From positions 836,482 to 900,481 of the forward strand of contig VXAI01000049.1 in NCBI GenBank assembly GCA_013399305.1: 64,000 nt of DNA, read 5' to 3'. Source of the DNA: Rostratula benghalensis (taxonomy: Eukaryota > Chordata > Aves > Charadriiformes > Rostratulidae). Below are positions 1 to 50,477 of the stretch, piece by piece (positions within the stretch are counted from its first letter, which is position 1; each line of letters begins with the position of its first letter). Under the pieces are notes generated by a model. It searched no databases and had not been told where the DNA came from. It saw only the letters and a program-made list of their open reading frames with translations. The position numbers and the translations under genes were made by a program.

Positions 1-2280
1 TGAGGATGTGAAGATGGGCAAAAGTGTAAGTTAATAGTAAATGATGGAGCAAATTGAAGAGCTGAGAGTGGTGTTGATTGTAAAGATGATTGAATACTGA
101 ATTGCTGTATATTGAAGCAGTTAGAAACATTGATTACTGTGGATTTTAAACACTAGAGGGGTGATATCCACTATGTGCTTCTAGTGAGCGTGCTTGAGAA
201 ATTGAAATGTGTGGGTCTGACCCTGAAAAGCCCTATAGACTCAGAACCATTCCCAAAACACACCTTTTGCTTCTCTAAGCTAATAGAAAAGACAGAATTC
301 TCCCTCCTCCTTGGGCAAAATGGGTCCCAAACCCATTCATATCCAGGTAACCCAGCCTGAAGAACGAAATATTCCTGAAAAGAAAGGGGGTAGGCTCTCT
401 GCAGCCCAGATAGGTGCTGGGGCTGCTGCTCTTGCAGGCACATCCAAGCTGGCTTCAAATTCGGTTGCCCGGCTGGTGATGGAGCCACAGCAGCACAGAG
501 CCAGCGTAGGGCAAGCTGTTTACCCGGTTTTTCAGCCACGGAACAACATTCACATCAGTGAATGCAGTGGAGACATACCCAGAATAAGAATGTGATTTAT
601 TCTTTCAATGTGAGAAGCAGCTATATGTTCAACAAAGGCTTGCCTTAGACTAATGGCCAAAGTAGGCCCCAGTGCAGCTCCTCTATAGAGCGAGAAGAAA
701 GGATTGTTTGTTGAGGCCCAACTGTCCCCAAACCCCAGTCTGCTGAGTGGATTCCGTCATGTAGGAGTTCTCTGCTCCCTTCATTGTCACGGGTGTTTCC
801 GCAGGCCTGCCACGCTCAGCCTAACTGGGGAATTTACTGCCACAGTTGCTGATAGAGCAGATAATTCAAAGTCCTGTCACATCTTGAAAAGAACAGAGGA
901 CGACTATAAACCCGTTTAATAAATGTAAGCTATTGTTTACCGATGGGATACAGGACAATGTGATGTAGCCACAGAACCTCTCATTCTCAAGGAATGGTAA
1001 AGCTCTTAGTGAAGGGATGGGTTAGAGTTGTGGTTGCTGAGGCTGGAGCATGGCTGGTTCCAAAGCAAACTCATGACATGCTCAGCAGTAGCTCACGGAG
1101 CCATAGCCAGTAAGGGCTGTCGTGCTGAGACAGGGGACACTGGCAATGACACTCTTTTCCTCCTGAACTGTTTGTGGTATTGCTTACCCTCTCTCTGGAT
1201 GGGAACCAGAGAAGAAAGAAGGAAAGTTTTGTTAATTCTTAGCATTTCCCCACTGCGAGTGACAATAACTTTGACCATGGGGCACCTAAAATAGTGATTT
1301 GCAAGGTCTCAGGGTGGGTGAGCCCTACTTTGTGTGTAGGAAATCTGCTCTCTGCAACTGGTTTCTTGGTCAGCGTGTGCCTTGCGTAGTCTTGTGAAAC
1401 ACCTAAGTGCTGTCCTGTTCCGGTGTGTGGGTACCTACCCTCCCTCAATAGGTGAAGCAGCCGAGGAGTAAAGATTCAACATTTGCTTTCCAGAGCGACT
1501 TGACTTCAGCTGACCTTGAAAGCCATTTATGCATCTAATTCATGTAAACTAACGCTCCTGAAAAATGCTGCTTTTTAAAAAACCTCGTTTATAAGAGCGC
1601 TCATTTTGGATGCTACTCATTTTCCAGCCTTTTTGGAATACGGTCTTGATTTGTGTATCCCTAGCACTGATTTTGGATGTTAACACTGCTGCATTCTTTG
1701 CCTTTCTTAGCATTCTGCTCAGGTTGTCAGTCCCGAAAAGCAAAACCACTCTTCCCAGCAATGAGGTGTGTCTCACACATGTAATGCCAGGACACTCAAG
1801 CACGGGCTGCAGGTGTTTGAACTGCACCTTAGCGTGGTTTTGGTGCTTGCACAATTGGCGGTAAACTTGGTTGGAAGTGTAGGATTGCTCTAAAATAATG
1901 GTGATGAGCAGTGTAAGTCTGGGAAGCTTGCAGAAGAAGGGGGGGTGGGGAGGGGGAAATGCACGTTTTCATTTGCCTTTGGGGAAGGTTTGTTATAAAC
2001 CACATGCTAGAGCAGAGAGCAGCCTGAAAGGGGCAAGAACTGCTGAGCCAGAAGGTCACACCACTCACCTGACATAGAGAATGATTTTGCTCTGGTCTGC
2101 AGCCTGCCTTCTCTAAATAGCCCTTGCAAATTGTCTGTTAGCAGGGGAAATTTTGGTTGGACAAATTCTTCTTGTATCTAAAGAAAACCAAGGTGGCACT
2201 GAAATTAGTGTCTGTTTGGCCTAACAACAAGGGAAATCCTGTTTTTTTTTTCCTGTGTTGTGGTCATCAGGGGGGCTGAA
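1..2280. other. Upstream flank, no gene seen
   Basis: This is unique-looking AT-rich DNA. The longest open frames are about 120 codons or less and resemble no family I know. A G-rich run at 1939-1956 (see findings) is the only notable feature. Confidence 0.7.
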
Positions 2281-2797
2281 ATCATAGAGTCACAGAATCA
2301 CAGGGATTGGAAGGGACCTTGAAAGCTCATCCAGTCCAATCCCCCTGCCAGAGCAGGAACACCCAGAGCAGGTCCCACAGGAACGTGTCCAGGAGGGGTT
2401 GGAATGTCTCCAGAGAAGGAGACTCCACCACCTCTCTGGGCAGCCCCTGCCAGTGCTCCCTCACCCTCACGAAGTTTTTCCTCATATTTCAGTGGAACCT
2501 CCTGTGTTCCAGCTTGCACCCATTGCCCCTTGTCCTGTCATTGCCTGTCACTGAGAAGAGCCTGGCTCCATGCTCCTGACACTCACCTTTTCCATATTTA
2601 TAAATATTCAGGAGGTCACCCCTCAGTCTCCTCTTCTCTAAGCTCAAGAGACCCAGCTCCCTCAGCCTTTCCTCCTCTGGGAGATGCTCCACTCCCTTCA
2701 GCATCTTTGTAGCCCTGCCCTGGACTCTCTCCAGCAGTTCCCTGTCCCTCTGGAGCTGAGGGGCCCAGAACTGGACACACTATTCCAGATGGGGTGT
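2281..2797 (-). mobile_element. CR1 LINE, 5'-truncated
   Basis: The 3' end is on the left, with octamer-like repeats (ATCATAGAGTCACAGAATCA) followed by GGATTGGAAGGGACCTTG. On the minus strand it encodes the C-terminal part of CR1 ORF2, including a [18 protein letters not shown] block. The element stops at about 2797, so only the 3' half-kilobase remains. It belongs to the same CR1 group as the copies at 13128 and 59811 (shared CTGCTCTGG... GGGG 3' region). Confidence 0.93.
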
Positions 2798-4751
2798 AAT
2801 GGCTCTCCTTAGCCTGCAGCAGGCAGGATGGTTTGTAGAACGCTCTGGGAAGCTGAACTGTGGTGCAGGTTAAACAAAGCCCACCGAAGCTCGCTGAGCA
2901 GATGCACAGCTTTGGATGTTGCAGGCAGCGTGGCTCCTCTCGGAATGGTGAGTGCATCCGGAGTTTAGCTCCGTGGCAAATGAGGCAGAACTCCAGAGGC
3001 GGCTGTGTGGTCCCCTGTATGGGCACTTTGGCTCTACAGAGGAGCACGCAGTGGGTGGGTAAATGCTGGTGGAGGTGGCTGGAGGCAGAGTTTCATTCCA
3101 GAATGCTTTGCAGTTCCTCGGCGTGCAGCTCTGATGCCCAGCCTTTATGAGATTCCCATCGTTTCAGTCAGGTGCGTGATGGTTGTGCTGTGCAGGCACT
3201 GGCAACGTGCAGCTGGCAGGACACAAAGATGCCATGGAACCGTGGGCAGAAGTGGCTGGAATATGATGGCAAAATGCAGAATAAAAAACCCCCCCAAAAC
3301 AAAGAAACATACAAACAAACAAAAACTCAACCCAAAACTAGAAAGAGCTGAAGGGGAGTATTCCTCAAGGGACAGGAAAGAGTTTATGGAAGTCACTGGC
3401 TACCTGCAGTAACTGATTGGAGCTGCCAGGGTCTGAGTGCATTATTAGTGAGGGCCACTGAGTGCCCTTCTTCAGTGTCAGTTTTCCAATAATTATTTAA
3501 ATGCAGATTAAAAAAAAAAAAAAAAAGTAAAATTGTCCATTTCAATATTTCTACTATTTCCACTCACTGGTTGTTCATACAGCTCACAGGTGTCTGGGAA
3601 ATTTGTCTTGAATGACATGTAGCAATAGGATATTTGCAGTACTATTTTCCCCATTTAAGACACTGTATATTGAGGTTGTAAAATGATGTGAATGTGGGGG
3701 AGCCAATAGACTTTTCCTGTGAGCCCTGAATTTGCTCTTCCTGGAAGGATAACGGGTTTTGATCTGAATTACCACAAACCCTTCAATGAGTGAGTTTCAG
3801 ACAAATATTAAACACGTGAATTTTAAATTACTGGTTGGAGAATATTCATCTAGAATTTATTCCAAATTGTTAAAAAAGAGATTTTGCAGAAGACGATCTA
3901 TTATTTCTGCTTATCCCTCATAAAGAAGAGGAACTATACATGCAGACTCCTGAAGCCAGTAAAAGTCAACAAAAGAAACCCAGTCTAGGCATTTCACAAT
4001 AGAGATTCACATAAATATTCACAATTTATAGGCCACCAAGGTCTCATGCTTGGAGCATGAGACACATTAATGGATCTCCAGCTTTGCTGTCCCTGTTCCA
4101 GTCCTTGCACATCATGAAATGGTGGCTCAGCCCATAGCCACAGCCCCTCTCCAGCCCAGACGCTTGCTGGCCCACACATGGTGTGTGAAACCCCAGAGCA
4201 GGGCACAGAGATCTTGACTTTATTCTCCACAACAGCAGAACTTCTTCTGGTTGGGCTCAGCTCTCAGAAGGCTGTTCCTTGTGCAGGTCTTCCTCAAGTG
4301 TGTCTTGTCCTAGTGAGCCCCACAGATCAGAACTTCGAAACCTGAGTGGTCTGGTTTCAGTCTGTGTGAACAAATGCAGACAAGACTCTTAAAGGTTCTG
4401 ATTCAAGCAAACTCTAAAGTATACCCCCACCTTCTGCTACGTGGGCTATTTCATTTTTAATGGTACATACCTTTGGAAAAAATAAGCTATTTGTGAGACT
4501 TCACGAACAGAAAGGGAGCTTGTGTTCATCAATTTTTTCTTCTGCGAGAAATTACTCATTCAGGTCACCCTTTTACTGCAAAAGTATGGGAGCAGAAGCG
4601 AGTCATGCTGAGTCCTTAAGGGGTGGAGTTGCTCTGTCACATACAGAACGTGCTAGGATGGGTGAGAGGGTGGGGAGGGAAAGAGCTGCTGCCCCTTCAT
4701 GCTCCTGATCCACAAGGCACTGAATTGGTCACAGGTCCTTCATGGACCTCC
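2798..4751. other. Flank between two CR1 copies, no gene seen
   Basis: Unique sequence with a 17-base A tract (3510-3526) and an A/C-only stretch around 3286-3336 (AAACAAAC-like units). No coding evidence. Confidence 0.7.
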
Positions 4752-5165
4752 ACAGACTTGGAGAACAAGTCTAGTGAGGAGGGGCTGAGGGAACTGGGGT
4801 TGTTCAGCCTGGAGGAGGCTGAGGGGAGACCTTCTCACTCTTTACAACCCACTGAAAGGAGGGTGTAGCCAGGGGGGTCACTCTCTTCTCCCAAGTCACA
4901 GGCCATGGGACAAGAGGAAATGGCCTCCAGTTGTGTCTGGGGAGGTTCAGATTGGGTATCAGGAACAATTTCTTCCCTGAAAGAGTTCTCAAGCCTTGGA
5001 ACGGGCTGCCCAGGGAAGGGGTTGAGGGACCATCCCTGGCAGTATTCAAAAGATGGGTTCACACAGTGATCAGTGTTGTGGTTTAGTGATGGCTTTTATC
5101 AGAGTTGGGTTGATGGTTGGACTGATGATCTCAGTGTTCCCTTCCAACCCAGGAACCTTTGGTGT
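4752..5165 (+). mobile_element. CR1 LINE, 5'-truncated
   Basis: It begins in the GGAGAACAAG...GAGGGGCTGAGGGAACTGGGG part of CR1 and runs through GGGAGGTTCAGATTGGGTATC to the 3' end TTGATGGTTGGACTG...CTTCCAACCCAGG. The terminal ATTCTATG octamers are lost or degraded. The reading frame is broken by small indels. It is of the same group as the copies at 45188 and 50017. Confidence 0.9.
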
Positions 5166-8100
5166 GACCTGTGGTGTGTCACAGGCTCTGCACGCACATG
5201 TTCCTCTTGCTGGCCCAGCCCTAGTGTCTCCCGTGCAAGAGACTGACTTCACAGGATCTCTCCATGACTGTTTTGCCTGCCTTCCCTCCACTGCCCCATG
5301 GCTTTGGTGGCTCTCGGTGTCACAGGGGAGGTGCTCTCCACCCTGCGGGCGCCACAAGTAGAGCTGCACCCACGCACCCACCATCTCCTGGGGCCATCGA
5401 TTCACCCTGTGCCCAGGAGAAACCCACGGGTGTGAAGGGCCTTGCAGTTACCACAGCAGCAGGACCAATGTCATTGAAAGGGAGAGAAGGGGAAGGGAAA
5501 AACCAAACCCACCTCAAATCCAAGTTCAGTTTTGGAGAAGTCCTTGTTGAATAATACCTGTTGTAGGAGCTGCTTTCAGCGAGGCACGAACGCGTTACCC
5601 TTTCCTTTCTGACGTGGTTCCGAGCTGCTTCATTACCAGCAGACTTCTTTGGGAGAGTGACAGGGTGGGAACCGGCGCTGTAATTACACACCCCGCTCTT
5701 TCTGTGAGATCTGCTGTAAAAACAGCTGGGGGTTCTCATTACCTCCCAAGACAAGCAGCGAAACAAATTTCTCACACCTTGCCCTCCGTTCCAGCCGGAC
5801 ACCGTTCCAGAATGAGGCGAATCATTCAGCAGTGAAAATGTAACCCATAGAAATGCTATTGAGTAGAATTCATTCAAAAGAAGGCATTTCTGCTTGCCTA
5901 ATTAAAGGATAAGGAAAAAAAAATCACGTATATTTTTGGTGGTGGTTTTGGGAGTTTGTTGCTTTTTTTTTGTTGTCCCAAAAGTCAGATCTTCATAGCA
6001 CAATTTACAAAAGGAAAATGTTTCCTTTTCCTGCAGTAGGGTAATTAAAAAACTTTCTCCCTCATCAATTCACCAAACATGGAAGGAGACATTCTATGGC
6101 ATTTTAGTACCTGGAATTCCCTATATTTTTTTTTCAGTTGAAAAATTGTAGTGTAGTGAACTAACACACCCGGCTTACCTGTGCTCTTTCAGTAGAGCCA
6201 TGATAATCTTTATCGTTGCTCTCTTGACTTTGTTTCAACATGCTTTTTAATGCAAATTTCCTAATCTAACTTGTAAAACATTTAATATTTAGAATATACT
6301 CCTTTAAGATGCATCAAAAGAGGCAGAGCTGCATAACAATGCCTGGTGCTGGAGCATTGTGAGCCTGCTACAAAGGAATGAGGTGATTCCTTCTTTCAGG
6401 TCAGAAGGTCAGGCTTCACTGCATTAATTTTGCTGAGTCTCTTTGTTATTTATAACAAACAAGGTCATTTATTTTCATTTCCTTGTTTCTAATTGCATGC
6501 ATCTCCTTTGGAGTATGAACTCAGTAAACAGGTGGCTGAAATGCTGGGGGAAAATGCTTGAAGCTGTTCCAGAAAAAGGGCACGTCCCGCACTGGTAAAG
6601 CAATTTGATGAGTTAGAGATTTAGTCATAGCAGGATGTGCACCTTCTTGAAAGCAAACATGCTTCTCTTTGGCACACACAGATACATGCAAATTCAAAGA
6701 GATTATTTCACTCTGAATGCTGGGTTGATACTTGATCAAATCTAACATTGTATATTTTAAATAAGCCTCGGTGTATATTAGTGAAATACAATCTCTCTTC
6801 CGCTGCTTTTGATTGATTTTTTTTTTTCTCCTGCACTTCTCTGATGAGTATTACAAACAAATGGTATTTCTTCACTAGCTGAGCCTACAAAAAGAGTGCA
6901 TCTCTGGAGGAGAACTTTATCAGAGGATCTTTATGATGAGAACTACCTCCGTGTACTGAAAAAAAAAAGGCCTAATGAAAAGCTAGAATGTTTGACTGAC
7001 AAGAAATAAAACAGATCTTAAATTTTTAATTCTTAAACAAATTCCCACAAATTAAAGGGCATTCATTGGAGTGATTGTGATATGTCTTTTTAAGCCAGTA
7101 AGACCATGTTTCCAGTCAGCCCAAACGGAACTCTGAAATACATTCATGGACAGCTTTTGCATAGGTAGTTATTCAATTTGCATTTGAAAATGCAGGCACT
7201 ATATGGCTCCATCTGTGGCTGCTTTGTTCTCAAAGATTGAGATACTTTGTGGACTACCTGGATTTTAGGGGCAGTTCAGAATATAGCAGGGAGCAGTCGT
7301 TGTCTGGCAGGACTTGAGTTTTTGTTGTGAGTTGGGGACGGGTCCAGGGCTGAATCCATGCGGGGAAAGAGAGGGAGGTTTTCTGACAAGATCCTCTATA
7401 TCCCCAAAGAATGAGAGGCACCATCCCCTGTGCCCACAGGCTCCGTGGAGAGCTTAAGAAACTCTCTGAGCAAGGGGAAAATGTGGGAGGAAGGCTGCAG
7501 AGATGGACATGCCATTCCAAGGGACAATTGTTGTGTCCATTTTCTAAGATTGGGGGTATGGGGGCCGGGGGGAGGTGGTGTTTGGAGGAGGCTCTGCAAG
7601 GTCACGAATCCCCCTGCTCCCCCTGTCATTTGTCTGCAGATTATTTCCTAAGAGTGGGGCAGGGAAGGCAATTTGGTTGTAAGGATTATGCTACAGCTTT
7701 CATTGTTTAGGATGCATACTGTAGCCTTTCTATGAGAAGATTACTGTCCTGGGCTTCTCTTTCCATGCATATGAAAACACACTTTGTAATTTCAGGGAGA
7801 AAATAACTTTAAATGGTACGTTGGAGGAAAGAAAATATTTTGTATCTCTGAAACGATAAAAATCCAAAACCTTTCTGTAGGAAAAATATTTGTTTCTTGA
7901 ATGTAATTATAAATGTCATTGTACATTCTTCCTGACTTCAGTGCTTATCTTGAAGAGTTCAGTGGAAATAAATTGTTTTCATGAAAGCAGAGAAGCCATT
8001 TGATAAACACACTGTCTCAGAAAATTGTTCCTGAAGCAGAGGTCGTTCTCTCACTTTAAAAGAAAGAGAATATGTTTTAGAAAACAAGCCAGGCAGCAGA

Positions 8101-11100
8101 AATAAGCATTTTTTGTTTCAGTCAATTCATTTTAAAAAGCAATGTGTAAATCACATGGAAAATTCTGCATTGATTATTTTGACTGCTGTAGAACCCTGGA
8201 ATAAATGGAGTTGAAATGGACTTATATCAAAGAACATTGCATTTAGGTGGCAAGTCAGAGTGTTATTTTAGTACTGATTTTTTAGATTTGCTTTTGTGAT
8301 CAGATGTTTTATTAAATATTAGCCATTCATGGAAATGAGGGCTGATTCTTTAAGAACAGCTTGGCACATACTGCTTAGGAGCTTGGGGAAATATTCTAGA
8401 GAACTGGATGAAATCTGTCTTCAGCCCTTCAATGCTGAAAACCCAGCCTGTGGAAGCATAAAAAAAAAAAAAAAAAAATAGAGTTCAGCTCTATAAACTG
8501 AACGTAATCTCTGGAATGAAAGTGTAGCAGTTCGTTTTGGAGGTGTCCCTAGATCACACTTCTAGAAATCTGTTTGTTAATTTTTCATCTGGTGAATTCA
8601 TGTACGTGTCTGTTACTGACTCTTAAACTCTGTTGTACAAGTAGTTACAAAAAAGTGTGTGGTGGGGGTGTTGGGTTTTTTTTAGTTCTCAGCTAGAATT
8701 ATGCTGCTATTAATACTGGAGTTATTAATATTCTAATGGAAGACTACATCATTAATTAGGAGACCTAAAGGAAAACTAATGAGTCCTTTGGAAGGCTACT
8801 TCCAGTTATTGTACGGACCTGATCTATCCAAATAAAGATGTATGGCTACAGTTATAGCAAATGTGGATATTTTTTTTATATCTTTGCATATTCTCTAGCA
8901 CTGGTCACTAATTATTTTGTTACAACCTGTGCTGGTACAAAGGTGACAGTTAATATCACAATAAGGCTCTGTACCGTTTGAAAGAGACATGAGAACAGCA
9001 GCATTCTTAGATAAAGATTCTTATTTTTAAGGCATGACTCTCATACTGTACGTGGTTTTCTCACCTTAAATCTTGGCAGTGTCTCATCAAGCGCTTCAGA
9101 GGTTTCCAAGCGATGACCAAAAGCCCATCTCTCCCATAGCCACCCACAAAAGATGTGTACTGTGGTTGTGAAGAGCATCTACGACCACTTCCATGGCTTC
9201 CAGGGACAGCCAGGGCACTGCTGCTCCTGTGTATCTCCCCAGGGTTCTACGCAGGCTCTCAAGGGTAAGTGTGCCCTCTCTCTGGGGACATACAGTATTT
9301 TACTGCATTGAACCCACAAAATCACAGAAAGATATTTTCTTGATCACTCCAGGAACATCGCCACATCCTTATTTAGATGCCTTACCATGAAATGTGTGCA
9401 CCTGAAATACATCAGAGGTCATATGGCTGTGTGCTGTATATTTCAAATAATTACCTTGGAGAACACGGGATGAAATTAAAACTGAAGAACATGTATGAGT
9501 GAATCTGGTGTAGATAAAAGGATTAAATGTAACCTTTCTCACCTGGAAATACTCTTTACCATATCTCACTAAGACGTTTCAGATACGTTTCATTACAATA
9601 ATTCTTTCAGTAATTAGATTGGATTCTACAGTAAAATAAAGTTTCTGCCTGACATTCCTCTGGCCTAATACAGAAATTTAAAGAATTTGGATTGCTTATG
9701 GCGAGCGTGTTTTTCTTCTGTAGACATTGTCCTTGTAAATTCCCTTTGAAAAGCAGGTGCCAGCAGCTTCTCCCCCTCCCCTCTTTTAACTTTAAATTCA
9801 AAAAATGTATGAATGTGGAGAGGACCAGAGGGGAAAAACAAACAATCAAACAGAAACATACCGCACAACTTCCAGGGCTTTTTATCAACAGAGGATGGGA
9901 ATATTAGATAAATAAATATATATGGTTTTATATATACACACAGATCCCTTTCTAACCAAGTTTTCCTGCCTTGTTTTAGAATGGCACCCCTGGAAGAAAG
10001 GAATAGATTGCAGTAGTTTCTTAGTTTCAGTTAAAGCTTTTAATTCTTTAATGCTAATCTAGAAATGACACTGTTCCAGTCATTGTTCTGTTAAAGAAAT
10101 TAATTTTTATATTACTGGACAGTTCCTTTTCTGCTTTTGGTGCTGCAATCAGTTTGTTTTTCAAGGTGGTCTTTATCTCACAATAACTGTATACTGGTAT
10201 GTCAGGATACTGTAACACTGCAGTCAATAGCAGCAGGATACGGGCTCGCCAAAAAGTAACCCTATATTGTCCATTACACACAGGTTATTTTGGAGGCTTG
10301 TGGAATACTTTCTTTAAAGTGGCAGAAACCTTTTTTTTTTTTTTTTTTCATGCCATAAGACAGTTCCACAGCATTAGCTGTTGTCTCTGCTCTGTAGACA
10401 GCCCAAATACTTGTTGTTTCTGCTCAAATGTGGTTAGAATTGTCATAGGCGAGTTGAGGTGATAAAATACTTCGGGTAAGACAAGAGACTTCAGCCATTC
10501 ACAGAAACATCAAAGCAGGCACATGTAAGTGTTTGAAAAATTTTAATAATTTTCTTTTTCCCACTTTCACAAAGTGATGCATTTCCTGACTTGGGTCTGT
10601 AAGAAATAGAATTTTCACAAGCCAAGAACTTTCAGTTGTGTGTTGTTTGTTGGTTTGGTTTTTTTTTTCCCTGCAACACTCCATACTTGTATTTTGAAAT
10701 AGAGTTGTACTTCTAGGGAATGACTATTAAAAATACTTAAAAAAAAAAATCCTTTGATCTGTAGTTTTCTAGATGAAGCAGCTGAGACAAAGAGAAGGTA
10801 AAAGATCATCTGGCAGACAAGCACTAGACTCCAGCTCCCCCGATTATTTGGCTGCTCCCATCTGCTGGCTGACATTCCCTCCTTTCTGCAGGAAACATGG
10901 TCAGTGACTAATAAGTCTTTATTGATCTCTGCTTGAGACACTTGCTGAGAAATGTAGATATCAATGAATATTTGATCTGAATTAATGCTCAGAACAAAAG
11001 TTTTTTTTACTTTACTGCCTCATTTCTATAGCATATTCATGCCTACATGATCATTTACAAATGCCAGCTGACTAGGAGGGGACTTGAGTGAGATAAATTC

Positions 11101-13127: not shown

Positions 13128-13790
13128 CCTTGGTGCCCTGGTGCACAACAGGGTGACCATGAGCCAGCAATATGCCCTTGTGGCCAAGAAGGCTGATGAT
13201 ATCATGCATCAGGAAGAGTGTGACCTGCAGGCCAAGGGAGGTCCTCCTCCCCCTCTGCTCTGCCCTGCTCTGCTGTGCCCTGGTGAGGCCCCATCTGGAG
13301 CAGCACTGTCTCCCCAGTTCCAGAAGGACAGGGAACTGCTGGAGAGGGGACAGCAGAGGGACACGGAGATGATCAGGGTCCTAGAACATCTCTCTGATAA
13401 GCAAAGGCTGAGGGACTTGGGTCTTTTTAGTTTGGAGAAGACTAAGGGGGGACCTGATCAACGCCTATAAATACTTCAAGGGTGAGTGTCAGGAGGATGG
13501 GGCCAGTCTTTTTTCAGAGGGTGCCCAGAGATAGGACAAAAGGAAACGAGCACAAACTTGAATATAAGAAGTTCCATCTAAATATGAGGAGGAACTTCTT
13601 TGCTGTGAGGGTGGCAGAGCCCTGGCAGAGGCTGCCCAGAGAGGTGGTGGAGTCTCCTTCTCTGGAGACATTCAAACCCCACCTGGACATGTTCCTGTGG
13701 GACCTGCTCTGGGTGGCCCTGCTCTGGCAGGGGCTTGGACTGGATGATCTCCAGAGGTCCCTTCCAACCCCATAGCATCCTGTGATTCCG
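13128..13790 (+). mobile_element. CR1 LINE, 5'-truncated
   Basis: The copy starts near CCTTGGTGCCCTGGTGCACAACA, continues through ACCATGAGCCAGCAATATGC and the GGCTGAGGGACTTGGG block, and ends with GGTCCCTTCCAACCCCATAG and a decayed octamer (TGTGATTCC). Two long open pieces of the ORF2 C-terminus remain (about 159 and 97 codons, in different frames), so the element has few frame-breaking changes. Confidence 0.93.
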
Positions 13791-15559: not shown

Positions 15560-16488
15560 NNNNNNNNNNNNNNNNNNNNNNNNNNNNNNNNNNNNNNNNN
15601 NNNNNNNNNNNNNNNNNNNNNNNNNNNNNNNNNNNNNNNNNNNNNNNNNNNNNNNNNNNNNNNNNNNNNNNNNNNNNNNNNNNNNNNNNNNNNNNNNNNN
15701 NNNNNNNNNNNNNNNNNNNNNNNNNNNNNNNNNNNNNNNNNNNNNNNNNNNNNNNNNNNNNNNNNNNNNNNNNNNNNNNNNNNNNNNNNNNNNNNNNNNN
15801 NNNNNNNNNNNNNNNNNNNNNNNNNNNNNNNNNNNNNNNNNNNNNNNNNNNNNNNNNNNNNNNNNNNNNNNNNNNNNNNNNNNNNNNNNNNNNNNNNNNN
15901 NNNNNNNNNNNNNNNNNNNNNNNNNNNNNNNNNNNNNNNNNNNNNNNNNNNNNNNNNNNNNNNNNNNNNNNNNNNNNNNNNNNNNNNNNNNNNNNNNNNN
16001 NNNNNNNNNNNNNNNNNNNNNNNNNNNNNNNNNNNNNNNNNNNNNNNNNNNNNNNNNNNNNNNNNNNNNNNNNNNNNNNNNNNNNNNNNNNNNNNNNNNN
16101 NNNNNNNNNNNNNNNNNNNNNNNNNNNNNNNNNNNNNNNNNNNNNNNNNNNNNNNNNNNNNNNNNNNNNNNNNNNNNNNNNNNNNNNNNNNNNNNNNNNN
16201 NNNNNNNNNNNNNNNNNNNNNNNNNNNNNNNNNNNNNNNNNNNNNNNNNNNNNNNNNNNNNNNNNNNNNNNNNNNNNNNNNNNNNNNNNNNNNNNNNNNN
16301 NNNNNNNNNNNNNNNNNNNNNNNNNNNNNNNNNNNNNNNNNNNNNNNNNNNNNNNNNNNNNNNNNNNNNNNNNNNNNNNNNNNNNNNNNNNNNNNNNNNN
16401 NNNNNNNNNNNNNNNNNNNNNNNNNNNNNNNNNNNNNNNNNNNNNNNNNNNNNNNNNNNNNNNNNNNNNNNNNNNNNNNNNNNNNNNN
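15560..16488. other. Assembly gap (929 N)
   Basis: A run of N stops directly at the GC-rich DNA upstream of TOX3 exon 1. GC-rich promoters are often missing from bird assemblies, so the core promoter and transcription start are probably in here. Long reading frames that cross the gap are artefacts. Confidence 0.99.
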
Positions 16489-16685: not shown

Positions 16686-16787
16686 ATGGATGTAAGATTT
16701 TACCCGGCTGCGGCGGGCAGCTCGCTTCCCGGAGACCCCTCCAACCTGGACTTTGCCCAGTGTTTGGGTTACTACAACTACAACAAG
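16686..16787 (+). CDS. TOX3: TOX3 first coding exon (5' end of the gene)
   Basis: The exon encodes 34 residues starting [11 protein letters not shown] and containing [10 protein letters not shown], then YNYNK. This matches the N-terminus of TOX3, an HMG-box nuclear transcription cofactor; the related TOX shares MDVRFYP but lacks the [10 protein letters not shown] stretch. The start has G at -3 and G at +4, a strong initiation context, and no upstream ATG lies between the gap edge (16489) and the start. The exon ends in AAG followed directly by GTGATT, a usable splice donor, in phase 0. That is the same place where the mammalian protein passes from exon 1 to the next exon. Compared with the human N-terminus as I remember it, there are about five extra residues (around SSLPG) after PAAAG. 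The HMG box and glutamine-rich tail are encoded by later exons outside the window. The call is firm from protein similarity; only the exact transcript start is unknown. Confidence 0.93.
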
Positions 16788-22078: not shown

Positions 22079-22620
22079 ATCATAGAATCCTAGAATGGTC
22101 CAGACCAGAAGGGATCTCTAGGGTCATCCAGTCCAACTCCCTGCAGTCAGCAGGGACACCCCCAACCACACCAGGTTGTCCAGGGCCTCCTTGAGCCTCC
22201 TCTTGAGTATCTCCAGAGAAAGGGCCTCAACCACCTCCCTGGGCAACCTCTTCCAGTCTTCCAACACCCTCAGAGTAAAGAACCTCTTCCTAATATCCAA
22301 TCTAAATCTGCTCTTCTCCAGCTTGAAGCCATTGCCCCTCGTCCTGTCTCTGCAGACCTTTGTAAATAGACCCTCCCCAGCCTTCCTGTAGCCCCTTCAG
22401 GTACTGGAAGGCTGCTTTGAGGTCTCCTCAGAGCCTCCTCTTCTCCAGGCTGAACAACCCCAGCTCCCTCAGCCTGTCCTCGGAGCCAAGGTGCTCCAAC
22501 CCCCTGATCATCCTCACAGCCCTCCTCTGGAACCGCTCCATCAGGTCCATGTCCTTCCTCTACTGAGGGCTCCAGACCTGCTCACAGGACTCCAGGAGAG
22601 GTCTCACCAGAGCAGAGCAA
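22079..22620 (-). mobile_element. CR1 LINE, 5'-truncated
   Basis: The 3' end on the left reads CATAGAATCCTAGAATGGTC, then AGGGATCTCTAGGGTCATCC. The body includes the reversed GGCTGAACAACCCCAGCTCC block and ends around CCAGGAGAGGTCTCACCAGA. It resembles the copies at 40525 and 42562. Confidence 0.93.
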
Positions 22621-25868: not shown

Positions 25869-25940
25869 GGTTTGTAGGTTCAGGACATATTTAAACACCT
25901 CCATATTGATTAACTGTCTAATTTTGATATGAAAAATTGT
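25869..25940 (+). repeat. Left arm of a perfect 72-base inverted repeat
   Basis: From GGTTTGTAGGTTCAGGACAT to ATGAAAAATTGT, this sequence is present again in reverse complement at 26738-26809 with no mismatch that I can find. It belongs to no repeat family I recognise. Confidence 0.95.
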
Positions 25941-26737
25941 GTTAAAACCATGCAAAAATCAATTGCTCCGTGGTGGAGTAGCTTATTTTCACAGCAGATC
26001 ATATTTATCTGCTGTCCTTTTTGTGCTATTCTGTAGTCATATGGCTTATACAAATAGTTGCATTTTGAATGGTTTGGGTACTGTATTTCAGTATTACCCT
26101 GTTATTAATAAAAGCGCTGTTGTTGAACTGTGCTTTTATCAGTAAACTGTTTTACTGATAGAGGATTAACAACTCTCTGGTTTTAGGGTTTTTTTTAAGC
26201 AATTTGCTTTCTTAAATAAGTAGGAATATGATTAGGCATGTGACAATAGTGGTTGTGTTTGCTTTAGTAGGTTAATGCTGTTACTTTTGTGGGTTCTTGG
26301 TAAGCACGTGGATGGAATGACAATAATAGGTGGCCACATAAATATGGGGATAGTTGTGGTTTCCTACCACAACCCAGCATGTTTCCTTTTTCTACTATTG
26401 TTTTGCTTGATATAGTCTGAAATACATTAAGCTTACTTTTAAAGTAAATTAATAAAAAAAAGCACCTAATGTATACCAATGGCAAAATAAACAGAATTTT
26501 ACAGTGCATTGTCTGTTCTTTTCCACAGCAGAACTGTAAGTAAATACAAGACTGATCTCAAGACTGTACACAATGCAAATGTAAATACATCGTGAGGTGC
26601 AAATGTGAGAGCTTAATTTAGATTTGCGCTGTAAAGTAATCATTAAAGTAAATAATGTGTTTATACCTATGTGACTTCCTCTTTGTGGTTTTCTGAGAGT
26701 GTCCAGAAAAAAAAAAGTTTGAAAAAATGGCTTCAAA

Positions 26738-26809
26738 ACAATTTTTCATATCAAAATTAGACAGTTAATCAATATGGAGGTGTTTAAATATGTCCTGAAC
26801 CTACAAACC
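26738..26809 (-). repeat. Right arm of a perfect 72-base inverted repeat
   Basis: It begins ACAATTTTTCATATCAAAAT and ends CCTGAACCTACAAACC, the exact reverse complement of 25869-25940. The 797 bases between the arms have no recognisable gene or repeat. Directly inside the arms a further 11 bases match at 7 positions; outside the arms there is no similarity. Confidence 0.95.
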
Positions 26810-29800
26810 AAATCAAATGAGAAAATGAAGTAATTTGTATTAATTTATTTTGTCCTGCCAAATACCTTAAGTCCAAGATACTGTTAATTAGAGGGACTTA
26901 ACAGATGCTTCTGCTGCCCTGTTTCTTCTGATGTTTTTAAAACCTGCTTAACGTTCTCCTTCTCCTCCTGCTCCGGAGCAGCAGAGACCCCAGGAGCTCA
27001 CACCGGGGGGCTAAACCAGACATAGGTTATGTCATCCCCAGGGGGGGCAGCCCTAAATGGTGGCTTCTGTGTCATCTCTTCCACGGGAGAGACCTACCTC
27101 TGGTCTGTGACATCGCAGAGGTGCTGGTGAGGAAAGCCACCTCTGTTACCTGCTCACACCTTCATCGAAGGAAATTATTTATTGATTTATTTATTAACGG
27201 CGATAGCTTCGTGCTGGCATCTTGGATGCTTTTTGTAGGGTGCACAGGGTATTTATTGCCCGGCTTCTTGCAAATGTGTAGTGGTTGTCTCCAGGATCTG
27301 ACAAGCCCTGTGTTAGGTGCCTTCTCACTTCTGATGGTTCTCTTGCCTTGTTTTTTTTAGTGGGAACTGCGTGGTGTGCACTTCTGGCTTTGGTGAAAGG
27401 TTGCTGTCAGGCTCTCCCAGCTGGGGGTGATGACTTGCTTCTGGGGTTTAGCCTTTGTGGTGCCAGCTTTGGTGGGTGCCTTTCCTGTGCGAGGACCCTT
27501 GGAGCATGCTCTGCGTTGGCACGTTCCTCAGGAGGCTTTCTCGTGTCCTCGAGAGCACGCAGCAAAAACCTGGAGTTCCTGCAGCCACCCACAACCAGGA
27601 CAGAACTTCCATCCATGTGCAGCTCTGACTTGAACAAGGGGAAAGGCAGGCTGTGTATTCAGTGCTTAAATATAACTCAGGGGGATTAATCAAAGATCAT
27701 GTGAAAGGAAAACTTAGTGGTTCTGTGCATTGAATGTAAACTCGAGTCAGCAAACCAATACTAGCACTTCAGTATACACAGATTTGTGGTGCATCCAGGG
27801 CACAGCTTGGAGATCAGTCCTGCTCTTCTGCCTGTAACTCTTCTCAAAAAAGCAGCTGTGAGGTTGTGCAGTGAGCTCCAATGTCTGTTTTGCCTCAGTC
27901 TGCAGCTCCAGCTTGCAAACTGTTTTTCTGGATTTATTGGGCGAACAACTTGCGATTAGGATAGCAGCCTTTTGCTGCCTTCGCTGGTGGAAAGTGTTTG
28001 AGTAAGGATGGCAAAGATGGGCTTTGACTTCTTTCAGCACAAATACATTGCTGGTGATAGTGTATCATACCAGTGTGCTGCCTAGTCTTCTGAATTCTGG
28101 TCTCTAGTAAATAGCAGTTTTTCAAGGAAAATCTCAGAATTTGCCCTTTTGTTAATAGTCTGGTGGAGAGTTTACATAACAGAAAAGAATCCTGATTCTT
28201 CCCTTGATAACATATTAAGGAGTAGGCGTTTTTTTGTTGGTGTTCTTTTTTTCTTTTGAGCTTTGTGTTGGTTTTTGGTTTTTGGGTTTTTTTTTGTAAA
28301 GAAAATTGGTGACTATTACTTGTAATACACGGAACTAATGGAAGTTGAATCGAAAACGTGACTCGTGTGCGGTCGCGCGTTTTCAAAGCGCGGGCAGTGC
28401 GTGTTGGTCTGCATCAGCTGTGACAACTTGCACTGCTTGGAAATGTGGGGAGGGGCTGTTTGCTGCTGTACAGGGTACATCCATCAGGATACACACGTAT
28501 CCTTTGGAGACCATGGGGCTCCTCATTGTTGCCAGTAATTTCTGGGTTGCTAATTAACTGAGTTCCACTGTGTACACTCTCTGTATCCTGTTCCATGGTG
28601 TTTGTGCGTTTATGCGGAATTATTTCTATATAAAATCTTTTAAGGTTATTCCATCATAAGGCATAAGTGAAAGAGAGGGATGATAAAGAGCTTGATTCAT
28701 ATCATGACTAACTGCAGGTGAACATTATGTTGTTATGCCTCATTCTTAGTGTTTCTGTGATTCAAAAATGATAATAAACTCCATTAAAATACCATGACAT
28801 CAATAGAGTGAGCATTTAAAATGCATATGGAAGGATAAAGGGTAGAAACCATATGAATATAATAGTTATCCCCTATAATTTTAGGCTATATAAAGTATTT
28901 GTAGATCTTCTGAGTTTCATTCATTCTCTGCATGGGTGAGAGCTGATTTCAAGCATTACACCTTCCATGCTGTCCTCCAGATGTAACCTTTTTCCTTATA
29001 AAATAAATGTGAAAGTGAAAAAAGAAGGAACGTTTTCTCTTGGAGGAAAATCAATTCTGGTCCTTCAGAATCATGAACTGGGATGGATACTTTGCAGCTG
29101 CAGTGGGTCCAAGCAACGCACTGCAAACCCGGCACAGAATTTTGATCAGAGAGAAAGTCTTTGATTTCCATTTTCTCTTTTTAACTACAGGTGGTTTGGT
29201 TTGGTTTTTGGGTTTTTTTTCCATTTCTTCTTACTTTGTTGAGTCTGAACCATGCTACTTCATCTTCCACGCTGCTGGGATAGGAAGTGGTCATCAGCTT
29301 CTCTGTTGCCAAAGGAAATGGCCATTTGTTGATTTAGAAAAGGAATTGGGAAGGGGCAGTGAAACACGTTAATGGAGAGGAGGCAGTGGTGGGTCAGAAA
29401 CACCTCTGGATAGTTACAATTTGAAGATGAAGTGTTTTCAGCCTGCCCAAGTTGCCAATCTTCTTGCAATTCTGGGTGATTAGTTGGTTTTTGTCATGGG
29501 TTTTTGAAGGGAGTGGGGGCTTGAGGGTGAAAAATGCACATTAAATTTAAAGAGTTCCTATTCAATTTGGAGAACTGATCTTTGGTTCTCGTTTGATCGA
29601 AGGAGATTGGGTTCATCTTTGCTTCTCCCTTCTATTGGTTTATGGCACCCTAGCAAAGGAGAACCTACCTGCAGCCTTTTTCCAAAACTGTAGTTGCCAG
29701 GGATCTTTGAAGGTAGGAATAAGAAATAACAAGGTTTTAGACGATGAGTCTCAGTATGTATGCTAGAGCAAGGCTGGGTGCTTTATTGATCCCAGCTACT

Positions 29801-41107: not shown

Positions 41108-42561
41108 TAAATCAAGGTGGCACAGAGGCTTATAAAAGATCATCAGTTGTATTGGTGTTGTCACTTGCTTCTGACTTTGAATTGGTGCTACTGTCTGTGT
41201 GCTTTACTATAGTCCCTGATAGAGAGGAAGATTATTTACTGTATTGAGGGGTTTATTAAGGATTTTAAAAAATTTGCTTTTTTGTACTAAAATTTCCCCT
41301 TGACTTGCAATATTTGGATGTTTTACATAATGCAACAATAAAATTTGTTTGCAGATGTAAAACAAGAGGTAATATTTACGTAATTTATCTTATTTATGCT
41401 TTTTATAAAAAGCAGCATAAGCTAAAGGTAGCCTTGTAGTATTTGAAGACAGGTAAATAATTGTTCTAAAATGTCAGTGGCTGTGGCATTCCAAAAACAC
41501 TGACTTTGTCTTGAATGACGTCTGTTTCCTCCTAGAGTCACGTTGATTAATTAATAACATTCAGGTAGGAAAAGTTTTAATTTGAAGATAAAGTCTGAGG
41601 TACAAGGTATTTATTGCACCAAAGATAACATGCTAATTAAGAGGTTCACACAGAGTTGTCTTAAGGTTAACAGCGTGCATGGGAATACTTGGGATAAAAC
41701 CCGAAGTGCAATCTAGGATCTGAATGCTGTATTTTTGCGAAGGTAGCATCTTTCCTGCTTTGTGACTTTGTTTTTCTGGGGAAGAACTCCTTGTGCAATG
41801 TTTCTTTGGCAGTAAATGTAGTTCGATAAGAAAACAGACATTGTCAGGCAAAGATTTGGAAGAGGATAAATAGTTCTGCATTCAGTATTAGTTCCAAATG
41901 CAGTTGCAAAGATCGTGTCAAAACAAATGTCTTCAAAGTCACAGTTCAGAAGAGGAAGCAAAACGCATACCTCTCTCATCTTTTAAAACAAGGAGGTTGT
42001 TTCCACTTGCTAGGTGCTTCGTTTTTCAAGAGCGGAATGGGGCACAGTGTAAGCAAGGGCATTGATAAAAGCCTTAAATACCAGTGCCCACAGTTTATGT
42101 GATGATCTGGAGTCTGTCTCCTGGGCCAGATTCCATCCCTTCTCTTAGCAAAAATGGAAAGGAGAAAAATGCAACTCCTGTGATTTATTCTATTGCAGTG
42201 CAATTTTCCAGCACAGCGGTTTCTACTTCCTGAGTCCTCAGCAACCTTTCTGGAGCTTCACTGCCCCCTTACCTAGCTCACAGGAGTGAAGCAAAAGCTG
42301 CTGGCTCTGGAGAGCGTTGGCATTCATCTCCAGGGGGGCTGCACATCAGCACTGGCTTCAGGCTTGGTGAGATCGGTCTGCCACTTGGGCCATGAGCAAT
42401 ATAAATAAATAGCATATATAATGCAAATGTCATAGTTTAAGATACAAAGATTACCTCACATTGAATGTTCATGACATTTTATGCATTCTCCATGCAGGGC
42501 TATGCAGTGGAATATACTTCCTAGACAAAATGAAACCAAGAACTTCACACCAGAATAGCAC
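41108..42561. other. Intronic stretch, no gene seen
   Basis: AT-rich unique DNA with no recognisable feature. Confidence 0.6.
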
Positions 42562-43296
42562 CTGGTTAAATGGTCCAGATGGAGAGCAGTGACAAGTGGT
42601 GTTCCCTCAAGGGCCCATACTGTTTACCATTGTTATCAATGATATAGACAGAGGGATTGAGTGCACCATCAGCAGGTTTGCAGATGACAACAAGCTGTGT
42701 GGTGTTGTCGTTACACCAGAGGGATGGGATGTCATCTAGAGGGACCTGAACAGGCTGGAAAGGTGGGCCCAGGTGAACCTCGTGAGGTTCAACAAGAGCA
42801 AGTGTAAGGTTCTGCACCTGGGCCAGAACAATCCTCACTCTCCATACAGACTGGGGGATGAGGTGTTAGAAAGCAGCCCTGAGGAAAGGGACTTGGGGGT
42901 GCTGATGGATGAGAAGCTGAACAGGAGCAGGCAGGGTGCACGTGCAGCCCAGAAGGCCAATCCCATCCTGGGCTGCATCAAAAAATGTGTTGCCAGCAGA
43001 TCCAGAGAGGTGATTCTGGCACTTTGCTGTGATGAGACCTCTCCTGGAGTCCTGTGGGCAGGTCTGGAGCCCTCAGTAGAGGAAGGACATGGAACATGGA
43101 CCTGATGGAGCGGTTCCAGAGGAGGGCCACAAAAATGATCAAGGGGTTAGAGCACCTTGGCTCCGAGGACAGGCTGAGGGAGCTGGGGTTGTTCAGCCTG
43201 GAGCAGAGGAGGCTCTGGGGAGACCTCAGAGCAGCCTTCCAGTACCTGAAGGGGCTACAGGAAGGCTGGGGAGGGTCAGTTGACAAAGGCCTGCAG
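42562..43296 (+). mobile_element. CR1 LINE with part of its reverse transcriptase frame, cut by a gap
   Basis: This is the most 5'-extended CR1 in the window. It starts in the reverse transcriptase domain: around 42600-42720 a FADDNKL sequence corresponds to the catalytic F/Y-x-D-D motif, preceded by FTIVINDIDRGI-like residues. Downstream come VRFNKSKCKVLHLG and the EERDLGVLMDEKLN block. One in-frame stop (after GWDVI) and later frame shifts show that it is dead. The 3' end lies in the assembly gap that begins at 43297. Confidence 0.93.
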
Positions 43297-45187: not shown

Positions 45188-45449
45188 AGAAGTAGAGGAA
45201 ATAACCTCAAGTTGTGGCAGGGGAGGTTCAAATTGGATATCAGGAACAATTTTTACACAAAGGGTTATGAACCCTTGGAATGGGCTGCCTGGAAGGGGTT
45301 GAGGCGCCGTCCCTGGAGGCACTCAGAAGCCAGGTTGACACAGTGCTCAGTGACAGGGTTTAGTGATGGTTTTTATCAGAGTCAGGTTGATGGTTGGACT
45401 GGATGATCTCAAAGGTCCCTTCCAACCTAGGCAATTCTATGATTCTGTA
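45188..45449 (+). mobile_element. CR1 LINE 3' fragment (right arm of a head-to-head pair)
   Basis: It starts with GAAATAACCTCAAGTTGTGG, continues with GGGGAGGTTCAAATTGGATA, and ends with an intact terminus: TTCCAACCTAGGCAATTCTA followed by TGATTCTGTA. It is of the same group as 4752 and 50017. Confidence 0.93.
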
Positions 45450-50016: not shown

Positions 50017-50477
50017 ATCATAGAATGGTCTAGGTTGGAAGGGACCTTTAAGACTATCTGGTCCAACCATCACCCTAACTCTGATAAAACCCATCACTAA
50101 CCCATGTCACTGAGCACTGTGTCAACCTGGCTTCTGAGTGCCTCCATGGATGGTGCCTCAACCCCTTCCCTGGGCAGTCCATTTCAAGGCTGAAGAACCC
50201 TTTCCTTGTAAAAAGCATTCTTAATATCCAATCTGAACCCTCCCTGGTGCAACTTGAGGCCATTTCCTCTTGTCCTATCATCTGCAGCTTGGGAGAAGAG
50301 ACCGACTCCCCAGCTACCCCCTCCTTTCAGGGAGTTGGAGAGAGCGAGAAGGTCTCTCCTCAGCCTCCTTCTCTCCAAGGTGAACACCCCCAGCTCCCTC
50401 AGCCTCTCCTCATAAAACTTATTCTCCAGACCCCTCACCAGCATTGTTGCCCTTTCCTGGACCCACTCTAGCACCTC
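50017..50477 (-). mobile_element. CR1 LINE, 5'-truncated
   Basis: The left end AATCATAGAATGGTCTAGGT is a well-preserved 3' terminus, followed by TGGAAGGGACCTTTAAGA. The reversed ORF2 C-terminus is open on the minus strand and includes [20 protein letters not shown]. The element ends at about 50477 within GGACCCACTCTAGCACCTC. Confidence 0.94.

Follow-up and report, generated by a model that had tools for sequence, protein, structure and literature searches.

The described systems closest to the inverted repeat analysed here are template-switch mutations, templated insertions, microinversions and, among mobile elements, bird MITEs; the figures given for them come from excerpts of the papers cited. 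In great apes, template-switch fragments are inverted, with a median length of 12 and a maximum of 128 nt, and poly(dA:dT) is enriched near the switch points (excerpt of PMC7954356). Two people carried 103 and 99 germline templated insertions measuring 25 bp or more, and MMBIR is described as priming at microhomeology that may lack a match even at its last base (excerpt of PMC8421209). Yeast MMBIR insertions, as cited in the same excerpt, came from no more than 100 bp away. The inverted repeats that flank reported microinversions measure 3 to 75 nt, and the inverted segments 17-33 nt (excerpt of PMC8755829). The bird MITE galluhop is dispersed, with TA duplications, at 4 to 10,158 copies per genome in the table of the excerpted source and 5 to 10,158 in its abstract (PMC5556988).

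The locus resembles short-range template-switch mutations, as laid out in the four-point model, in being a nearby reverse-complement copy, tens of bases long, in AT-rich surroundings. Its length of 72 nt fits the great-ape fragments (maximum 128). However, the arms are separated by 797 bases, whereas the survey covers tens to hundreds of nucleotides, and the event here is a probable one, proposed from one genome sequence (excerpt of PMC7954356). With MMBIR-associated templated insertions (MMB-TI) it shares a copy of at least 25 bp from a nearby template and a possible priming site at microhomeology whose last base is mismatched. Unlike MMB-TI, the outer junction is without visible extra homology and the template lies ~0.8 kb away, beyond the 100 bp seen in yeast (excerpt of PMC8421209). 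As at microinversion loci, flanking inverted repeats provide a setting for inversion, but the segment between them is a 797-base spacer known in one orientation (excerpt of PMC8755829). Finally, inverted repeats several hundred bases apart recall MITEs such as galluhop, whereas one copy was found here and no TA duplication (excerpt of PMC5556988). A literature search found no title on this locus.

Geometry and setting of the repeat

The window, that is, the whole 64,000-nucleotide stretch that was analysed (contig coordinates C722:836482-900481), contains the inverted repeat at C722:862350-863290. Its two arms are exact reverse complements at 72 of 72 bases. Recomputation from the window bore out the preliminary description in the coordinates of the arms, their exact complementarity and the 797-base spacer. 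The features are as follows, in window positions.

16686-16787, forward strand: coding part of TOX3 exon 1 (tblastn match)
25869-25940, forward strand: left arm, 72 nt, exact reverse complement of the right arm
25941-25951, forward strand: inner-edge extension of the left arm, 8/11 complementary to 26727-26737; possible priming-junction microhomeology
25941-26737, no strand assigned: spacer, 797 bases, G+C 33.5%, no second copy reported by the genome search
26264-26557, reverse strand: open frame of 97 residues within the spacer, with a sub-threshold DUF4817 match
26707-26716, forward strand: A10 run, 21 nt inside the inner edge of the right arm
26727-26737, reverse strand: inner-edge extension of the right arm, partner of 25941-25951
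26738-26809, reverse strand: right arm, 72 nt

The repeat sits in intron 1 of a gene identified by tblastn as TOX3. It lies ~9 kb downstream of exon 1, in an intron of ~55 kb that takes up the remainder of the window past that exon. Exon 1 matched at 73.5% identity (34 columns, with a 5-residue gap). Further pieces were found on the same strand at about C722:908149, 912175, 928248, 929861, 930002 and 931465; exon 2 is marked by a 16-residue match (87.5% identity, E 0.003), and the other five pieces show 82-100% identity. Two weaker tblastn matches (E 1.1 and 4.4) were taken as chance. The exon-1 frame matched no Pfam family, and a search against the PDB returned only two weak and unhelpful matches (E 0.94 and 1.8). 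A gap of Ns at 15560-16488 lies just upstream of the exon. TOX3, the CR1-like repeats and the size of the genome are all in keeping with a bird.

If mismatches are allowed, each arm grows inward to 83 nt, with 96% complementarity. All three mismatches of these longer arms fall in the innermost 11 positions (P = 0.0018 under random placement, a value that is partly post hoc as the alignment itself fixed the 83-nt limit). In this inner extension the base adjoining the 72-base tract is mismatched, and 8 of the 11 bases match (chance probability 0.0021, or 0.0018 by prefix score), whereas beyond the outer edges only 2 of 11 do. The preliminary description had counted 7 matches of 11 just inside the arms, which is corrected here to 8.

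No other exact inverted repeat in the window is as long as the 72-base pair. The next longest (54, 48, 44 and 42 nt) have partners ~5 to 21 kb apart which, judging from their reading frames, we take to be CR1 LINEs. Interspersed repeats form inverted pairs, matching exactly over up to 54 nt, at 22369-22606 and 43033-43277, at 45314-45430 and 50030-50146, and at 2360-2445 and 13630-13715; these resemble the 3′ ends of CR1 LINEs. A perfect 18-base palindrome, TGCTTTTTATAAAAAGCA, is found at 41397-41414. We also surveyed two stretches of the contig (100,000 and 163,519 bases, the second including the window, with 13,134 bases of N) for exact inverted repeats of at least 20 nt with spacers of up to 5 kb. 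Six were found in these 263.5 kb, namely the 72-nt pair, three CR1-like pairs (42, 24 and 20 nt) and two palindromes (24 and 20 nt), so that the 72-nt pair is the sole entry that is neither a palindrome nor CR1-like. A match of 72 bases cannot credibly be put down to chance. The inverted repeat is real, or at least really assembled, and is an ordinary feature.

Mobile element, assembly artefact or older repeat

The preliminary description had proposed searching the arm against the same genome, with presence only at this locus pointing to a local event. In the 1.087 Gb searched (1298 contigs), the full arm as a DNA query was found in two places, both at this locus; this search skips very common words and scores the best candidates only, and absolute uniqueness is not claimed. 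A search with the outer 25 bases, in which three mismatches were allowed, gave one forward and one reverse match genome-wide, both again at this locus (0 and 0 for a reversed-pattern control), and a 1081-bp region comprising spacer, arms and flanks found only itself and its own arms at E values up to 10. Together, these searches argue against a mobile-element family; one with preserved terminal inverted repeats (TIRs) should have appeared in the search with the outer 25 bases. Four reading frames of the spacer were compared with Pfam and none reached the cut-off; a transposase or its remnant would be expected of autonomous elements only. Vector, phage or plasmid contamination was also considered and rejected, as the 941-bp stretch had no match in phage or plasmid collections and a 23-base word of the arm had none in viral contigs.

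An unrecognised TIR element, one of three options raised in the preliminary description, fares poorly, since the searches of the genome itself, with no copy reported beyond this locus, stand strongly against a dispersed element. Terminal inverted repeats are present (72 nt, exact), and the repeat could in principle be the single surviving copy of a small TIR transposon of 941 bp with a 72-bp TIR and an AAA target duplication. The sharp outer and fuzzy inner ends are TIR-like, and AAA flanks both sides, although this 3-bp match is the only one resembling a target duplication at the outer ends and means little because the DNA is A-rich, where such matches are common. One hint in favour of an element comes from a spacer frame in which 19 residues match DUF4817, a helix-turn-helix domain, below threshold (12.6 bits where the cut-off is 22.6; E 0.11), but this is at chance level for four queries and was taken as chance. 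Moreover, inspection by eye of the open reading frames listed for the window revealed no transposase, and neither the full arm, the outer 25 bases nor the whole region reported a second copy of the kind expected of a TIR DNA transposon or MITE. Given one locus in the genome searches and no Pfam family above cut-off in the four spacer frames, we judge a mobile element unlikely, and a lone surviving transposon very improbable.

Two further explanations were considered. Gap filling or scaffolding may have inserted a fragment of a read, reverse-complemented, at one of the two arm sites. Exact identity of the arms is what such an artefact would yield, a 72-base arm is shorter than an ordinary short read, and Ns are frequent, with gaps of 929, 714 and 10 bases in the window and 13 more in the 200 kb surrounding it. 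The nearest remaining gaps are, however, more than 9 kb away (gaps already filled being invisible), both clean junctions would need to be false, and the 8/11 similarity at the inner edges is not expected of an artefact; overall we regard this explanation as unlikely. Somewhat less likely again is an inverted repeat that is older and was at first imperfect. Quasi-palindrome correction, or gene conversion between its arms, would have made the outer 72 bases identical and left three mismatches in the innermost 11. The confinement of all three mismatches to that segment would suit such a history, with the same partly post hoc P of 0.0018, and template switching that turns near-perfect into perfect inverted repeats has been described (excerpt of PMC7954356). 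Against it, the outside similarity of 2/11 leaves no trace of an older, longer repeat on that side.

Template switching as the probable origin

A single local inverted duplication through template switching, MMBIR-like or by fold-back, is the best explanation of the locus and probably the correct one; it is also the best supported of the three options offered in the preliminary description. From what is observed (two copies of the arm in the genome as searched, their 72-base identity, the sharp outer edges and the imperfect similarity at the inner edges) we infer the following strand switches. The 3′ end of the new strand would have left its template at an inner edge, either in replication or in break-induced repair. 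It would have annealed imperfectly to the inner-edge sequence facing it at the other arm site, with 8 of 11 bases paired and a mismatch directly beside the copied tract. Copying would then have run outward from the inner edge for 72 bases before the strand went back to its own template. In this way a piece of single-copy intron, 72 bases long or up to 83, may have been copied, reverse-complemented, to a site ~0.8 kb away. The model is symmetrical, and either arm could be the new one.

The evidence for template switching is of several kinds. One arm reads as a reverse-complemented duplicate of sequence close by that is otherwise single-copy in the genome as searched, which is what template switching gives. 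Homology at the junctions is uneven (8/11 at the inner edge, P ~0.002, and 2/11 at the outer), with any homology within the arm being invisible; this is the pattern that priming at imperfect microhomology would be expected to leave, and we regard it as a hint. Poly(dA:dT) is likewise present in the form of the A10 run, but its proximity is weak evidence because the region is AT-rich. Several points count against template switching. The 11-base inner-edge match is short and alone gives no stable DNA hairpin, folding at -1.3 kcal/mol, with 94 of 200 shuffles folding at least as well (calculated with an artificial linker). The outer junction, moreover, appears from the sequence to carry no extra homology, and the template is more distant than in the yeast insertions. 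Direct repeats were also sought at the junctions and only TCAAA was found, flanking the right arm at 26733-26737 and 26813-26817. Were the right arm the insert, this might be a small duplication, but we judge it to be within chance in AT-rich DNA and probably fortuitous.

Age, folding and possible significance

The 72 arm positions show no differences, which places the 95% upper limit of arm divergence at 4.1%. At bird rates of 1.9 to 2.3 x 10^-3 per site, where per million years is our reading of the unit (excerpt of PMC5556988), this limit puts the event at less than ~9-11 million years ago if the arms evolve independently. Conversion from arm to arm would make the event seem younger than it is.

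As RNA, a 981-nt segment covering the locus folds into one long stem (z of -13 against 20 shuffles). This strong fold arises from the arms themselves and is not a separate sign of function. Rfam returned nothing at gathering score across the whole window, and three miRNA matches close to the locus, all sub-threshold (E of at least 2), were taken as chance. Within the spacer, at 26529-26535, a splice-like arrangement consists of a pyrimidine-rich tract with CAG, 7 bases and GTAAGT; if used, this would be a 7-nt micro-exon, but it is probably a chance arrangement. It is conceivable that selection has kept a 72-83 bp double-stranded RNA in TOX3 intron 1 and that this RNA governs pre-mRNA processing, by way of ADAR editing, for example, or of a cryptic 7-nt exon in the loop, but we consider this extremely unlikely. 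The repeat is probably a neutral scar in the intron, without effect.

Taken together, the locus most likely records a known kind of event, an ordinary mutation scar and not a mobile element. As a single example it matters little. If real, it would be a template-switch scar several times the great-ape median in length (72 against 12 nt, excerpt of PMC7954356). The arms could pair as a long RNA hairpin in the TOX3 pre-mRNA, and the locus could be liable to inversion of its spacer. Should the repeat prove variable among individuals, it would be convenient as a marker and as a site at which to test for such inversion.
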